A stretch of 64,000 nt of DNA from Rhizobium sp. N324 (GTDB lineage Bacteria > Pseudomonadota > Alphaproteobacteria > Rhizobiales > Rhizobiaceae): positions 3,413,001 through 3,477,000 of the forward strand of contig NZ_CP013630.1 of NCBI RefSeq assembly GCF_001664485.1. The letters run 5' to 3'. Positions 4,675-25,390 of this stretch are shown here, piece by piece. A model generated the notes under the pieces. That model ran no database searches. It was not told where the DNA came from and saw only the letters and a list, made by a program, of their open reading frames with translations. How positions within the stretch are numbered: position 1 is the stretch's first letter; the number at the start of each line of letters is the position of its first letter. Position numbers and translations under genes: made by a program.

Positions 4675-5913
4675 ATGTATGAATATGCCATTGCATGGGA
4701 ATGGCTCGCTTTCGCGGCGCGCTGGTTCCATGTCGTCACCGCGATCGCCTGGATCGGATCGTCCTTCTATTTCATCGCGCTCGATCTCGGACTGGTGAAA
4801 CGCCCGCATCTGCCGCCCGGCGCCTATGGCGAGGAATGGCAGGTCCATGGCGGCGGTTTCTATCATATCCAGAAATATCTGGTGGCGCCCGCGCAAATGC
4901 CGGAGCACCTGACCTGGTTCAAATATGAGAGTTATTTCACCTGGATTTCCGGCTTCCTGATGCTGTGCATCGTCTATTATGGCGGCGCCGACCTCTTCCT
5001 CATCGACCGCCACGTGCTCGATATTTCGAAGCCGGTGGCGATCCTGATCTCGCTGGCATCACTCGCCGGCGGCTGGATCATCTACGACCTGCTCTGCAAA
5101 TCCCCGCTCGGCAAAAATACCTGGGGCCTGATGGCGGTCCTCTATGTCGTGCTGGTCCTCATGGCCTGGGGCTATACGCAGCTTTTCAGCGGCCGCGCCG
5201 CTTTCCTGCATCTCGGCGCCTTCACCGCGACGATCATGTCGGCCAACGTTTTCATGATCATCATCCCGAACCAGAAGATCGTCGTCGCCGATCTCATCGC
5301 CGGCCGCACGCCCGATCCGAAATACGGGCAGATCGCCAAGCAGCGTTCGCTGCACAACAACTACCTGACCCTGCCCGTCATCTTTTTCATGCTGTCGAAC
5401 CACTATCCGCTCTCCTTCGGAACGCAGTTCAACTGGGTGATCGCCGCTTTGGTCTTTCTGATGGGCGTCACCATCCGCCACTGGTTCAACACCACCCATG
5501 CTCGGAAAGGCCGGCCGACCTGGACCTGGATCGTCACCCTCGTCCTTTTCATCCTGATCATGTGGCTTTCGACGGTGCCGAAACTGCTGACCGGCGATAA
5601 GGATACGGCGGCGGCGGCGCCCGCCTTCCAGCAATTTGCCGGCGATCCGCATTTTCCCGCCGTCAAGCAACTGGTCGCGACGCGCTGTTCGATGTGCCAC
5701 GCCGCCGAGCCCGTCTATGAGGGCATCGTGCGGCCGCCGAAGGGGGTGATGTTCGAAAACGACGCGGAAATTGCCGCCCATGCCCGCGAGATCTATATAC
5801 AAGCGGGCCGCAGCCATGCCATGCCGCCCGGCAATATCACCGATATCACGCCGGACGAACGCAAGCTGCTCGTCGCCTGGTTCGAAAGCGCAGTCGAAGG
5901 CAAGAAACAATGA
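4675..5913 (+). CDS. puuD: Urate hydroxylase PuuD (membrane urate oxidase with cytochrome c domain)
   Basis: A 412-residue protein of the PuuD family: an N-terminal membrane part with about eight hydrophobic segments (first WLAFAARWFHVVTAIAWIGS) and a C-terminal c-type cytochrome domain with the haem motif CSMCH at residues 338-342 and an axial Met candidate in HAMPPGN. The family converts urate to 5-hydroxyisourate and passes electrons to the respiratory chain instead of making hydrogen peroxide. The stop overlaps the guaD start (ATGA at 5910), so the two are translationally coupled. The later steps are encoded at 17.7-20.4 kb. Confidence 0.93.
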   Translation: MYEYAIAWEWLAFAARWFHVVTAIAWIGSSFYFIALDLGLVKRPHLPPGAYGEEWQVHGGGFYHIQKYLVAPAQMPEHLTWFKYESYFTWISGFLMLCIVYYGGADLFLIDRHVLDISKPVAILISLASLAGGWIIYDLLCKSPLGKNTWGLMAVLYVVLVLMAWGYTQLFSGRAAFLHLGAFTATIMSANVFMIIIPNQKIVVADLIAGRTPDPKYGQIAKQRSLHNNYLTLPVIFFMLSNHYPLSFGTQFNWVIAALVFLMGVTIRHWFNTTHARKGRPTWTWIVTLVLFILIMWLSTVPKLLTGDKDTAAAAPAFQQFAGDPHFPAVKQLVATRCSMCHAAEPVYEGIVRPPKGVMFENDAEIAAHAREIYIQAGRSHAMPPGNITDITPDERKLLVAWFESAVEGKKQ

Positions 5914-21289: not shown

Positions 21290-22468
21290 TTAACGTGAAG
21301 CCGCCGCGATATGGCTTGATATCGTGAAGCTTTCCGGCAGCAAAAATCCGCAGTCTGTATCGCCTGCGATACATATTGCCGCCTCCGCCAGCCGGTGGGC
21401 CAGGCCGAAGCTGACCTTGAAGCCCCCGGTCAGAGCGATCAGGCGCGGGTGATCGGGATGGCGGCCGATCATCGGATCGCGGTCGATCGCCTTCGGGCGA
21501 AGCCCGGCCCAGCGTTCGACGACGGCAGCGTCGCGCAGCGCCGGCACGATCCCCCGCGCCGCGGCGATCAGCGCGTCGAGCTGGCCATCGGTCGAAGCGG
21601 GATCGTCGAAACGGTTCTCGCTGGTACTGCCGATCGCCGCATGGCCGCCCTCATGCGCCACGACATAGAGCCCGTCGAGAAAGATCGTCGGCAGCGCCGG
21701 GTCGAGATCGGCTTTCAACAGCGCCGCCTGCCCCTTGACCGGCTGGCCGAGCGGCTGTTTCAACCCCGGCGTCAGGCCCTGCAGCAACGGAAAGGATTGA
21801 TGGCCGGCGGCCAGGATGCAGTGGTCGAAAGCAACGCTGTCGCCGCCTATCTCGGCCGTGCCGCGATCCGGATCAAGGCCGGCAACCGCTGCATGCTCCC
21901 GAATGCGTACATGTTTGGCCTGCCGCAGCAAGGTGACAAGTGCCGCGATCAGCGAACGGGGCGCGACGCGGGCGGCGAGCGTGTCATGCACGAAGCCGCT
22001 CTCGCCGGCCGACGCCTCGATCCAGCCGCCGACCGGCGGGCCGTCGAGCACATGCCAGTGGAACCGGCGCGCGCCGGCCTGCCAATGGCGTTCGGCGTCC
22101 TCGCAGTGGCGGCGCGCGATTTTCTCGAGATGCGGCTTCGGCAACGGAATCAACCGTCCCGAACGACGATAACCGGCCGAAAGCCCGGTTGCCGCTTCGA
22201 GCGTGTCGATCTCGTCTTCGAGCGAGACCAGCGCATCGAATTGGAACTGCTTCTTCTCAGACCACCGATCCGGCATATGCGGCATCAGCGCGCCGAGCAG
22301 GCCGCCGCTTGCGCCTCCGCCCAATTGGCCGGCGTCGGCAATGATCGTATCGATGCCGCGGCGCTCGGCATGGACAGCTGCCCAGAGACCCATGATTCCG
22401 CCGCCGACGATCAGCAATTCGCAGGATGATTGACCTGAGACCGGCCGAGGATTATCGGCTTTTTCCAT
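21290..22468 (-). CDS. FAD-dependent oxidoreductase, MnmC2 (DAO)-like
   Basis: A 392-residue DAO-family flavoprotein. The FAD-binding Rossmann motif is ELLIVGGGIMGLWAAVHAE, followed by ADAGQLGGGASGGLLGALMP, and the C-terminal nucleotide-contact part is LIALTGGFKVSFGLAHRLAE. The neighbour on the other strand is the MnmD methyltransferase, and in enterobacteria these two activities are one protein, MnmC, that finishes mnm5s2U34 in tRNA; this suggests it is the MnmC oxidase half as a separate protein. Its ATG (22468-22466) shares two bases with the divergent mnmD ATG (22467-22469). Confidence 0.85.
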   Translation of the reverse strand: MEKADNPRPVSGQSSCELLIVGGGIMGLWAAVHAERRGIDTIIADAGQLGGGASGGLLGALMPHMPDRWSEKKQFQFDALVSLEDEIDTLEAATGLSAGYRRSGRLIPLPKPHLEKIARRHCEDAERHWQAGARRFHWHVLDGPPVGGWIEASAGESGFVHDTLAARVAPRSLIAALVTLLRQAKHVRIREHAAVAGLDPDRGTAEIGGDSVAFDHCILAAGHQSFPLLQGLTPGLKQPLGQPVKGQAALLKADLDPALPTIFLDGLYVVAHEGGHAAIGSTSENRFDDPASTDGQLDALIAAARGIVPALRDAAVVERWAGLRPKAIDRDPMIGRHPDHPRLIALTGGFKVSFGLAHRLAEAAICIAGDTDCGFLLPESFTISSHIAAASR

Positions 22469-23195
22469 GACAGACGTGAACCCCGATCAGATTGGCGCGG
22501 GCGCGCCGCAGCCGCTCGAATGGCGCGACGGCGATATGCCTTATTCCACCGCCTTTGGCGATCATTTTTATTGCCAGACCGACGGCCGGCTGGAATGCGG
22601 CCATGTCTTCCTCGCCGGCAACGGCCTACCGGAGCGCTGGAACGGCCGGCAGGAATTCGTGATCGGCGAGCTCGGCTTCGGAACCGGCCTGAACTTCGCC
22701 GAGACCTGGCGGCAATGGAAGCAGCATCGCGCTGCCGGCCAGCATCTGCATTTCATCTCCTTCGAACTCCACCCGATGCGCGTCGACGAGATCGGCCGGG
22801 CGCTCTCGCACTGGCCGGAGATCGATGCCGAACGCGAGGCGCTGACGGCGGCCTGGCCGCAAACGCCTGCCAATACCGTCTCCCTCGACCTCGACGATCA
22901 GACGAGGCTCAGCGTCGTCTGCGGCGCAGCGCTCGACGGCGTAACAGCGGCAAAGCCCGGCTTCGACGCCTGGTATCTCGATGGCTTCGCTCCGTCGCGC
23001 AATGGCAACATGTGGTCTGAAGAACTGATGCGGCGCGTCCACGAAAAAACCACGAGCGGCGGCACCTTCGCCACCTATGCCGCGGCCGGCTTCGTGCGCC
23101 GCAACCTCATCGCGGCAGGTTTCGCCGTCGAACGCCGCCAGGGCTTCGCCGGCAAACGCGAAATGCTCTGCGGCATCAAGGCGCCCGGCAAATAA
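22467..23195 (+). CDS. mnmD: tRNA 5-methylaminomethyl-2-thiouridine methyltransferase MnmD
   Basis: A 242-residue SAM-dependent methyltransferase matching the N-terminal half of MnmC, which methylates nm5U34 in tRNA. Visible: LEWRDGDMPYSTAFGDHFYC, the SAM-binding IGELGFGTGLNFAETW, FISFELHPM and the substrate-site YLDGFAPSRNGNMWSEEL, followed by GTFATYAAAGFVRRNL. Divergent from the FAD oxidoreductase gene with overlapping start codons, so each promoter must lie inside the other gene. No good ribosome-binding site is visible; a GAGG 16 bp upstream is rather far. Confidence 0.9.
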   Translation: MTDVNPDQIGAGAPQPLEWRDGDMPYSTAFGDHFYCQTDGRLECGHVFLAGNGLPERWNGRQEFVIGELGFGTGLNFAETWRQWKQHRAAGQHLHFISFELHPMRVDEIGRALSHWPEIDAEREALTAAWPQTPANTVSLDLDDQTRLSVVCGAALDGVTAAKPGFDAWYLDGFAPSRNGNMWSEELMRRVHEKTTSGGTFATYAAAGFVRRNLIAAGFAVERRQGFAGKREMLCGIKAPGK

Positions 23196-23266
23196 GCATT
23201 CCGGATTCGATCGCCAATATTGCCAACAGTTACCGCTTTGCCGATGATCTCCGAAAAGGAATGGAT

Positions 23267-23461
23267 ATGGCAAACAACGCGAACTCTGGCCCGCAACTCC
23301 AAAACCACATGGACGAACGTGTGAAATCGGAACGGGCAAAACGACTGATGACACTCGATCTGGCAATCGGCCGGGGGATCGCCGACGCGGAAGCGGGCCG
23401 CCTCAAGCCTATCGGCGATGTCGCAGCGCGCCTGACGGCCAGATACGACGACCGTTCGTGA
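23267..23461 (+). CDS. Solitary ParD-like antitoxin-type small protein
   Basis: A 64-residue protein. The C-terminal two thirds (RLMTLDLAIGRGIADAEAGR then KPIGDVAARLTARYDD) follow the pattern of ParD/CC2985-type antitoxins (xLxxxIxxGxADxExGRxxxxxDVxxRLxxRY). The start at 23267 has AAAGGA 6 bp upstream; an ATG at 23261 lies too close to it. No toxin-like gene is next to it on either strand, so it may be an orphan antitoxin or a regulator. Confidence 0.62.
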   Translation: MANNANSGPQLQNHMDERVKSERAKRLMTLDLAIGRGIADAEAGRLKPIGDVAARLTARYDDRS

Positions 23462-23596
23462 TCGTCCTGTCCCGCAAAGACCCGCAACTAGGTAGCATTG
23501 CTGGTTTCCGCCTATAACTAATCTTATCGCGAAGATTGCATTCGGCGTCGGGACCGTCTATCGACGGGTGGAACTCAAAAGGCCCGACATACCGAC

Positions 23597-23635
23597 ATGG
23601 AGAATATCGTTCCAAAGACTGTCCGACGACGCTGA
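23597..23635 (+). CDS. Candidate leader peptide with three Arg codons before argS paralogue
   Basis: A 12-codon frame, MENIVPKTVRRR, ends with CGA CGA CGC immediately before TGA and stops 51 bp upstream of the arginyl-tRNA synthetase start. A run of the cognate codons at the end of a short upstream frame is the layout of classic attenuation leaders. An AAAAGG motif ends 14 bp before the ATG, which is a weak ribosome-binding site. Coding is inferred, not proven. Confidence 0.4.
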   Translation: MENIVPKTVRRR

Positions 23636-23686
23636 AGCTCTCAAGCTTCCGCGAACCTTTAGTCATGCAGTCAAAGGGAATGATCC
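23612..23686 (+). promoter_or_regulatory. Possible translational attenuator of the argS paralogue
   Basis: Three possible pairings are visible: GAAGCT (23634-23639) with AGCTTC (23644-23649); CCTTT (23656-23660) with AAAGG (23673-23677), which covers the AAGGGA ribosome-binding site of the synthetase gene; and GACTG (23617-23621, inside the leader peptide) with CAGTC (23668-23672), flanked by CC/GG. The last two compete for the sequence beside the ribosome-binding site. A ribosome stalled on the Arg codons would cover the 23617-23621 strand. No T run is present, so control at translation rather than transcription would be expected. Confidence 0.35.
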
Positions 23687-25390
23687 ATGTCCGTGAAATC
23701 GGCAGCGCTCGCCGCGCTCGCATCCGCATATAAACTGAACGGCCTTGAAGCCGCTCCTTCCGTCGTCCGGTCAACGAAGCCGGAATTCGGTGACCTCCAG
23801 TGCAACGATATGATGCCGCTCGCCAAGGCAGGCGGGAAGAACGCGCGCGAGTTGGCCGCCTCCGTCGCCACAGCGGCGCACCATGACGTCTTCGAAGACG
23901 TGTCCGTCGCAGGTCCTGGCTTCCTGAATTTCCGGTTGTCGAACGAGACCATTGCCGCGGAGGCGACAGCTATGCTGGGAGATCCCACGCTAAGCGTCGG
24001 GAAAGAGTCCCCCGTCCGCACCGTCATCGACTTCGGCGGCCCCAACGTCGCGAAAGCCCTGCATGTCGGCCACCTCCGGTCATTCGTCATCGGTGAGAGT
24101 CTCCGGCGCATCTTGGCCGAGATCGGACACGACGTGATCTCGGACATTCACCTCGGCGACTGGGGTCTGCAGATGGGCAAGCTCTTGCACGGCGCTGCTA
24201 TCGCCTCCGGCTGGCGGCACGGAGATCCCATGCCTTTCATCAAAGACTTCTCTTTCGACGAAATGTCGGTCGAGGAGCTCGGGATACTCTACAAGTCCGG
24301 CAATGCGGCGAGCGAGGACGATACCGCGCTTGCGGTTGCCCGGTCACTTACGAACCTGCTCCAGGACGGCCACCCCATCCTCACGGCCGCATGGAAGCGG
24401 ATGCGGGAGATCTCCCTCGAGGCAGTGTCAGCCACCGCCGGACAGCTGGGGGCGCATTTCGACTTATTTTTCGGCGAAAGCGACGCCCACTCCGAGGTCG
24501 CCCCTATGCTTGACGACCTCGTGTCACGCGGGCTTGCCCGGGAGAGCGACGGAGCGCTGATCATCGACGTCTCCGGCGAGGGACTACCTGACAACGTCCC
24601 GCCGCTTTTACTGCGGAAGAGCGATGGTGCCGCGCTATACAGTACCACGGATCTGGCGACGTTGCGGCGGCGGGTGCGGGACATCGGTGCGCAACGGATC
24701 ATCTACTGCACCGACGATCGCCAAGCGCTCCACATCGGGAGCGTTTTCTCGGCTGCGCGCTCGGCAGGATATGCCCACGGTGTTGAGCTGCGGCATGCAA
24801 CTTTCGGCACCGTCCGGGGATGGAATGGGAAGCCGTTTAAGACCCGGGACGGCTCCACGGCGTCGCTCAGCGACATGATCGAGCTGGCGCTTGCGAAGGC
24901 CGCCGAGAAAGTGAAGGACAAGGATTCGGCGACTGCGGTTGGCCTCGGTGCACTGAAGTTCGCCGACCTCTCCACCCCAAGGAAGACCGGATACGTCTTC
25001 GATATCGACAAGATGACCTCTTTCGAGGGACGAACGGGACCGTATCTGCAGTACGCCTACGCGAGAATCTGTTCGATCCTTAACAAGGCAGCCTCGGCAG
25101 GCATCGTTCCGGGCGTCACGGTCTCTGTCAGCCATCCGTCAGAACGGGCGGTGCTGGTCGAATGCCTATGGTATCCGCATTCGCTGTCCGAAGCCGCCCG
25201 GCAGCTTGAACCGTTCGAGATCGCCGAACGGGCATATCAAGTGGCGGACACCTTCAATCGCTTCTACGCGGACTGCGCAGTGCTGAATGGAGAAGATCCA
25301 CCCGGACGTCTCGCCACCTGCAAGCTGGTAGCGCAAGTGATCGGCAAGTGTCTTGAGCTTCTCGGAATGGAAACAGTGCGAAGGATGTGA
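23687..25390 (+). CDS. Arginyl-tRNA synthetase, divergent (probably second) copy
   Basis: A 567-residue class I arginyl-tRNA synthetase. The N-terminal additional domain (residues about 1-90) ends in VAGPGFLNFRLS; the HIGH motif is NVAKALHVGHLRS; later blocks are DIHLGDWGLQMGKL, STTDLATLRRRV, IYCTDDRQALHIG, the KMSK-equivalent PFKTRDGSTASLSDM, and the anticodon-binding domain ending LLGMETVRRM. It differs clearly from the housekeeping rhizobial ArgS as I remember it (about 585 residues, beginning MNLF), so I infer a paralogue. Codon use is less biased than in the neighbours, suggesting acquisition. The ribosome-binding site AAGGGA lies 7 bp before the ATG. Confidence 0.88.
   Translation: MSVKSAALAALASAYKLNGLEAAPSVVRSTKPEFGDLQCNDMMPLAKAGGKNARELAASVATAAHHDVFEDVSVAGPGFLNFRLSNETIAAEATAMLGDPTLSVGKESPVRTVIDFGGPNVAKALHVGHLRSFVIGESLRRILAEIGHDVISDIHLGDWGLQMGKLLHGAAIASGWRHGDPMPFIKDFSFDEMSVEELGILYKSGNAASEDDTALAVARSLTNLLQDGHPILTAAWKRMREISLEAVSATAGQLGAHFDLFFGESDAHSEVAPMLDDLVSRGLARESDGALIIDVSGEGLPDNVPPLLLRKSDGAALYSTTDLATLRRRVRDIGAQRIIYCTDDRQALHIGSVFSAARSAGYAHGVELRHATFGTVRGWNGKPFKTRDGSTASLSDMIELALAKAAEKVKDKDSATAVGLGALKFADLSTPRKTGYVFDIDKMTSFEGRTGPYLQYAYARICSILNKAASAGIVPGVTVSVSHPSERAVLVECLWYPHSLSEAARQLEPFEIAERAYQVADTFNRFYADCAVLNGEDPPGRLATCKLVAQVIGKCLELLGMETVRRM

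Follow-up and report, generated by a model that had tools for sequence, protein, structure and literature searches.

The argS2 locus

The window, by which we mean the whole 64,000-nucleotide stretch of Rhizobium sp. N324 contig NZ_CP013630.1 that was analysed, contains a gene for an arginyl-tRNA synthetase (ArgRS), here called argS2, which is preceded by a very short open reading frame ending in three arginine codons and a stop codon. The initial annotation had placed the ATG of this frame at 23597, its end at CGA CGA CGC TGA and the start of the argS gene at 23687, and the sequence agrees on all three. Positions 23597-23635 read ATG GAG AAT ATC GTT CCA AAG ACT GTC CGA CGA CGC TGA. The predicted product is MENIVPKTVRRR-stop, and 51 nt separate the frame from argS2. 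The features of the locus are as follows.

23536..23564, + strand: probable promoter, TTGCAT (23536-23541), a 17-nt spacer and TATCGA (23559-23564), placed by the ATTGC and TCTA blocks that alignment A1 shows as conserved
23577..23582, + strand: leader Shine-Dalgarno AAAAGG, from sequence, 14 nt 5' of the leader ATG in the window strain
23589..23596, + strand: 8-nt insertion relative to L046, from comparison of the window and L046 upstream regions
23597..23635, + strand: leader ORF, MENIVPKTVRRR-stop, from sequence; frame kept in 18 of 19 argS2 loci
23624..23632, + strand: putative regulatory Arg codons CGA CGA CGC, from sequence, alignment and codon counts
23633-23635, + strand: leader stop codon TGA, from sequence
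23673..23678, + strand: argS2 Shine-Dalgarno AAAGGG, from sequence
23687..25390, + strand: argS2, auxiliary arginyl-tRNA synthetase, 567 aa, from TIGR00456 and alignment with solved ArgRS

The last AGG or GGG before the leader ATG ends 6-7 nt away from it in 14 of the 18 loci with a leader. The spacing is 10 nt in L054, 11 nt in L005 and 14 nt in the window and L001, and these last two are the loci that both have the 8-nt insertion. A consensus scan found no promoter-like site upstream of the leader; the conserved blocks of alignment A1 suggest the placement given above. Further upstream, the window has a separate gene for a 242-aa MnmC2-type methyltransferase domain (21290-23195; 257.9 bits, cut-off 136). 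Divergent from it is an FAD oxidoreductase that falls below every matched NCBIfam cut-off (best ThiO, 122.9 of 250.8). A 66-aa ORF without an NCBIfam match (23261-23461, +) lies between the MnmC2-like gene and the leader.

Distribution and apparent mobility of argS2

The argS2 product matches the TIGR00456 arginine--tRNA ligase family with 355.1 bits (cut-off 261.65). It aligns with solved bacterial ArgRS over most of its length, the HVGH and FKTR motifs being present, and is a full-length ArgRS. The window's genome contains another argS (G000:C1:1967202) with 36% identity to argS2 over the best stretch. The closest named record to argS2 is from Rhizobium ecuadorense, with 99% protein identity. 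Within the genus 11 of 148 genomes have the gene, and within the family 5 of 394 sampled genomes; the window's own genome is in both counts and G017 in the second. The named genome collection gave 13 loci, and in 11 of these the identity over the entire protein is 77% or higher. Further proteins with 62-64% and 51-52% identity are on record (P0040-P0046, P0051, P0053). Plasmid records gave 93 matches, and among the best 40 there were one more whole argS2 (H2, 62%) and one broken copy (H1). As judged from these comparisons, argS2 is an auxiliary, divergent and patchily distributed second ArgRS gene.

Does this gene move alone or together with its leader? Loci L005 to L011 lie in seven different neighbourhoods, and the DNA common to them extends from between -143 and -255 nt up to between +1681 and +1743 from the argS2 start; the exception beyond this segment is one 78-bp match between L005 and L011. 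Because the common DNA is limited to that segment, the promoter, leader and argS2 seem to move as one unit. One neighbourhood, extending over kilobases, is common to the window, L002, L003 and L004. Outside that neighbourhood no common neighbour was seen when the ORF lists of 12 argS2 loci were compared by eye, and unrelated neighbourhoods were not found to share any gene besides those of the putative cassette. R1, a covariance model of the leader, hit each argS2 genome once and no other genome searched (11/148 and 5/394; E 0.001, stricter filters); as R1 was trained on the same argS2 loci, it refinds them by construction and only its absence elsewhere is informative. The single hit per argS2 genome, with nothing in the other genomes searched, led to the rejection of a repeat-element origin for the leader. 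Carriage of argS2 by phage was likewise rejected, since the 18 phage records matched were all below 60% identity, and viral_contigs held no relative. A motif seen at some cassette ends is absent from the window at up to 3 mismatches, and its degenerate form is absent from the window's genome.

Several loci contain repeats, broken copies or fragments. In L009, direct repeats of about 430 bp that are 91.6% identical flank argS2 (2228-2656 and 4820-5249). In L066 (3971-5646; S. meliloti M270 pSymA) the match begins only at residue 8 and there is a frame change near residue 385; the leader's place is taken by other DNA with a frame that, from its motif, looks like a serine recombinase. The broken argS2 of L056/L057 (G376) is split between two frames, with residues 1-245 in one piece and residues 167-567 in another that overlaps it; its leader is intact. 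A 53-bp piece at L084:2501-2553 is 89% identical to the argS2 promoter region just upstream of the leader; it is found in four R. leguminosarum plasmid records, and the gene is not in the match. A 239-bp argS2 fragment with 84.5% identity (L085:2501-2739) is near IS5 transposase genes in R. leguminosarum pRL3 and is also present in three more records.

Conservation of the leader

The leader was compared across 19 argS2 loci with identities of 62% or more (the window, L001-L011, L046, L053, L054, L055, L057, L066 and L067). L014-L016, L047-L052 and L056 are second fetches of counted loci, and L013, a 25-residue match, was unused. An ATG frame of 10-13 codons ending RRR-stop is present in 18 of the 19, 46-53 nt 5' of argS2. 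The leader peptides are MENIVPKTVRRR, MENIVLKTVRRR, MNMVPKIAERRR, MTMAPKIAERRR, MNMAPKIAERRR, MNKFPKIAERRR, MNNFPKIAERRR, MVPTIAERRR, MAPRIAERRR, MNMVLKIAGRRR and MRNTIPARPRRRR. Many members have PKIAERRR in common. The peptide of L067, MRNTIPARPRRRR, is unlike the others, and RRR-stop alone is common to all 18. The single locus without a leader is L066, where other DNA occupies its place. The initial annotation had raised the question of whether the frame or its Arg codons are lost where the synthetase is kept; both are kept in 18 of the 19 loci, and its reading of the frame as a cognate-codon leader is supported.

The leader is linked to argS2. No leader ending RRR-stop was found at any of 28 housekeeping-type argS loci, nor at any of 11 remoter homologues with 35-47% identity (about 300 nt upstream of each, less in L059). 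The window and the fetched loci together have 295 long ORFs with distinct upstream regions. An RRR-stop ORF is present at 19 of them, namely 17 argS2 loci and two antisense frames inside argS2. Dinucleotide shuffling of 8 of the 18 upstream regions produced such a short ORF in 27 of 8000 sequences, against 8/8 of the real ones. The leader frame is more than chance.

At the codon level, 17 distinct leaders were counted, L001 being left out of this count and of alignment A2, as its leader is identical to that of the window. Arg codon 1 is CGA in 8, CGG in 8 and AGG in 1, thus Arg codons only. Codon 2 is CGA and codon 3 is CGC in 17/17, a constancy that rests on invariant alignment columns, as the leaders in the codon count were located by a string containing those codons. 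CGA is rare: of the 169 Arg codons in four window genes it accounts for 2, and both of these are in argS2. In the window fold CGA is outside the pairs of helices P1, P2 and P3 described below; the CGC of codon 3 is within the P3 stem, and its constancy may be structural. Fourteen of the 17 leaders were used to count variable sites at codon positions 1, 2 and 3; the numbers are 0, 1 and 2 for the window group (five leaders) and 1, 5 and 5 for the other group (nine leaders). There is no clean third-position pattern, yet the Arg run changes silently only, and variation is freer in the N-terminal half of the leader than in the Arg triplet.

Predicted RNA fold

The window RNA from 23570 to 23720 has a predicted fold of -55.2 kcal/mol (z -4.28), and 0 of 200 shuffles were as good. 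The z-scores of the 18 leaders are all negative, from -6.15 to -1.10 (100 shuffles each). L066, where the leader region is replaced, was left out of the alignment, fold and pair counts. The following elements belong to the window minimum-energy fold.

23594..23601, + strand: helix P1a, 5' arm (leader start), pairs with 23684-23691
23684..23691, + strand: helix P1a, 3' arm (argS2 start codon)
23607..23613, + strand: helix P1b, 5' arm, pairs with 23677-23683
23677..23683, + strand: helix P1b, 3' arm (Shine-Dalgarno end and spacer)
23617..23622, + strand: helix P2, 5' arm GACTGT, pairs with 23667-23672
23667..23672, + strand: helix P2, 3' arm GCAGTC
23630..23653, + strand: hairpin P3 at the leader stop codon, third Arg codon included

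In the predicted minimum-energy folds the leader RNA is paired with the argS2 ribosome-binding site (RBS) or start in 18/18 loci. The unpaired probability of the argS2 start codon is at most 0.19 in 16 of the 18 (L046 0.49, L067 0.60), and for the Shine-Dalgarno stretch the mean across the 18 leaders is 0.31-0.78. The predicted fold would thus cover mainly the start codon. The initial annotation had named two pairings as rival states, CCTTT/AAAGG hiding the RBS and GACTG with CAGTC as its competitor. The latter appears in the predicted fold as P2, where it belongs to the same long RBS-covering structure and is no competitor of it. CCTTT/AAAGG is absent from the window minimum-energy fold and was rejected as the main lock; the Shine-Dalgarno is covered instead by 23607-23613 with 23677-23683. 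This Shine-Dalgarno helix and the helix joining the two start regions had not been listed, and both are in the same fold as P2.

The predicted fold is conserved among these loci. On A2, a MAFFT alignment without hand correction, fixed-column P1b, P2 and P3 pair in 95.8% of cells, against 30.2-42.7% when slid; P1a was excluded from the pair counts, as its register differs between clades. P3 is paired in 97.8% of cells, and one pair of P2 is U-A in 11 sequences and C-G in 5. The covariation score is 0.177, compared with 0.142 in shuffles, and 0 of 500 were as high. Both-side changes occur at one pair only, which 448 of 500 shuffles do as well, and there are 9 pair types compared with a shuffled mean of 10.0. 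The RNAalifold consensus is weak (-7.96 kcal/mol, -1.01 of it from covariation). Covariation support for the fold is thin. Between the two main clades the individual folds show a one-base shift of P1b, and P1a is built from another ATG-bearing segment. We take these register shifts as pairing that may be kept with different letters, beyond what fixed-column counting registers. Overall, we regard this as a real and conserved leader of the Arg-codon type, with a conserved predicted fold, on what appears to be a mobile auxiliary argS.

A model ribosome on the leader

A ribosome was modelled as 31 blocked nucleotides, and the energy needed to open the argS2 RBS was computed for each position. With Arg1 in the A site this energy drops in 17/17 distinct sequences, by more than 3 kcal/mol in every one, the mean falling from 14.8 to 7.7 kcal/mol. 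The block at Arg1 lowers it more than a stop codon in the A site (17/17) and more than an equal block after the stop (17/17). The mean opening energies are 7.1 kcal/mol at initiation, 6.0 at codon 4, 8.7 at Arg2, 9.1 at Arg3, 9.3 with the stop in the A site and 12.3 for the equal block after the stop. Because of these means, a ribosome anywhere on the leader would loosen the lock, and most at its beginning. On average the RBS is opened at least as far by a ribosome at initiation or codon 4 as by one at Arg1, and in the model RBS opening is not specific to the Arg position. Slow decoding of the Arg codons would prolong the loose state. In L005, model stalls at Arg2 or Arg3 fail to open the RBS.

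The initial annotation held that a stall would raise synthetase translation. The model favours that sign in 17/17 sequences, but with Arg1 stalled the argS2 start codon is still mostly paired (unpaired 0.50 or less in 18/18). Mean Shine-Dalgarno accessibility in the Arg1-stalled model is up in 11, equal in 1 and down in 6 of 18. P1a is allowed to close around the ribosome in the model, perhaps unrealistically. The tightest lock is that of the window strain, and it stays tight with the Arg1 stall (23.6 to 16.1 kcal/mol). With this lock and a leader Shine-Dalgarno 14 nt from its ATG, the window copy is the least convincing example.

Proposed mechanism and alternatives

The best explanation, to which we give a probability of roughly 0.65, is that the leader is a cis-acting translational attenuator that senses the charging of arginine tRNA and is carried by a spare, horizontally moving synthetase gene. 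We infer that the leader is translated, where its transcript starts, that ribosomes stall on it, and that the outcome, its sign included, is induction. The transcript would begin just 5' of the 10-13-codon leader ORF. Free of ribosomes, the leader RNA would fold onto the argS2 RBS and start codon, and the spare synthetase would stay low. When charged Arg-tRNA is ample, the Arg triplet would be crossed fast, the ribosome would exit at the UGA and the lock would re-form. When charging falls, because arginine is short or the housekeeping ArgRS is poisoned or saturated, a ribosome waiting on the Arg codons would cover the 5' arms of P1b and P2 and the lock would loosen, allowing more ArgRS2 to be made until charging recovers. 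The leader thus probably helps to switch the spare ArgRS on when charged arginine tRNA runs short.

Is the control exerted on translation or on transcription? From the leader stop to the argS2 start the longest T run is 2-4 in 17/17 sequences, as the initial annotation had indicated in reporting no T run, and the + strand of 23400-23760 contains no terminator-like site. Rfam gave no match to the leader, either in the window up to E 5 or in L001, L006, L011 and L067 at the gathering score, and a known riboswitch was rejected for this reason. Because there is no U run, no + strand terminator-like site and no Rfam family, translational control is favoured, and the system looks translational rather than transcriptional, as first proposed. 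An intrinsic or Rho-dependent terminator governed by the leader before argS2 is improbable: the well conserved P3 hairpin at the leader stop speaks for it, but the U tract and the terminator-like site are both missing. Of the initial interpretation, the cognate leader and the translational control stand, the rival pairings do not, and the gene is an auxiliary argS.

The main rival to translational attenuation is an upstream ORF that unfolds the RNA without sensing anything. Any translation of the leader would keep the argS2 RBS open or feed reinitiation, and the Arg codons would not signal charging. The model ribosomes at initiation and codon 4, which open the RBS at least as well as Arg1 on average, fit this reading. 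It is nonetheless unlikely, given an Arg triplet conserved before an ArgRS gene in 18/19 loci, with the rare CGA fixed, and an N-terminal half in which variation is freer. Could the peptide itself act instead, with RRR in the exit tunnel stalling the ribosome at the stop codon or binding free arginine as a ligand? The Arg codons abut the stop codon and PKIAERRR is common to many members, but RRR-stop alone is common to the 18 and the L067 peptide, MRNTIPARPRRRR, differs; we consider such arrest improbable too. Autogenous synthetase operators are known, and the folded leader adjoins a synthetase gene, where ArgRS2 might bind it as a tRNA mimic. Such an operator would leave the conserved ORF and its Arg codons unexplained and is very improbable. 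Least credible of all is a functionless chance ORF: the poorly spaced leader Shine-Dalgarno in the window and R. ecuadorense would suit it, but conservation in 18/19 loci, with 27/8000 shuffles giving such a frame, already contradicts it.

Significance and the canavanine context

If translational attenuation is correct, arginine joins the synthetases behind cognate leader peptides, the control point moves to translation initiation in α-proteobacteria, and the spare synthetase is one that moves horizontally and brings its sensor along to each new place. It would also offer a testable reason for a second ArgRS in some rhizobia, namely arginine analogues or ArgRS inhibitors around legumes. According to PMC10018355, canavanine is poorly discriminated by most ArgRS, and in R. 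leguminosarum a homologue of the canavanyl-tRNA editing protein adjoins canavanine degradation genes. We suppose that such editing would return uncharged tRNA-Arg and could trigger a leader of this kind. A more tentative proposal, possible but doubtful, is that promoter, Arg leader and argS2 form a compact mobile cassette serving soil- and legume-associated bacteria as an inducible back-up ArgRS. Poisoning of the housekeeping enzyme, or a loss of charged tRNA-Arg to canavanyl-tRNA editing, would switch this ArgRS on by translational attenuation, giving a self-sensing protection against arginine analogues.

A second B3/4-domain match is present in 9 of 11 argS2 genomes, compared with 15 of 21 same-genus genomes without argS2, the less complete G003 being left out. 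The link of canavanyl-tRNA editing to argS2 was dropped on this count, which gives no clear association. In the window's genome, outside the window, the second B3/4-domain match is at G000:C1:3229025-3229423 in a short frame (231 aa); comparison with PMC10018355 makes it a candidate canavanyl-tRNA editing protein.

Comparison with known systems

Among the open-licence PMC papers found by searching, none was recognised that describes a leader peptide for argS, which does not establish its absence from print. Leader-peptide attenuators of other synthetase genes are described, in PMC1262725, for pheST in γ-proteobacteria and for trpS and leuS in some Streptomyces, as classical ones with terminators; the same paper mentions arginine T-boxes among the T-box riboswitches. 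The argS2 leader resembles these attenuators in having codons cognate to the downstream synthetase, but differs in that no terminator was found and that the amino acid is arginine. Relative to the trp/phe type of transcriptional attenuator, argS2 has the cognate leader ORF and no intrinsic terminator was found. T-box riboswitches also report tRNA charging for amino-acid and synthetase genes, but bind tRNA directly without a leader ORF, and the argS2 leader has no Rfam match, to the T-box model or any other. Vecchione and Sello reportedly described, in 2010, an auxiliary tryptophanyl-tRNA synthetase gene under ribosome-mediated transcriptional attenuation, with a known drug resistance. There too a spare synthetase would lie behind a cognate leader peptide; in contrast to that system, argS2 has no terminator and no known inhibitor.

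Among systems that act on translation, the erm attenuators induced by macrolides have a leader stall that frees a masked RBS. A stall on the leader would free the RBS of argS2 in the same way, but in erm the stall comes from the drug and the nascent peptide and not from cognate codons. For rbfL-rbf of Staphylococcus aureus, PMC13009471 describes a leader peptide whose Arg codons sense arginine and whose target is translation initiation; the paused ribosome there occludes the RBS and represses. The likeness to argS2 lies in arginine sensing by Arg codons and in action at the level of translation, while the sign is opposite and the gene unrelated.

The argS2 leader would work most like orf34-speF of Salmonella. 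There, according to PMC6386406, a 34-codon upstream ORF with consecutive Arg codons precedes the ornithine decarboxylase gene, its translation helps to unfold an RBS-masking structure, pausing at the Arg codons alters the downstream RNA structure, and Rho and RNase G are also used. The argS2 leader differs in its 10-13 codons, in Arg codons that abut the stop and in a downstream gene that is a synthetase, and it has in common with orf34-speF the consecutive Arg codons and, by prediction, the RBS-masking structure.
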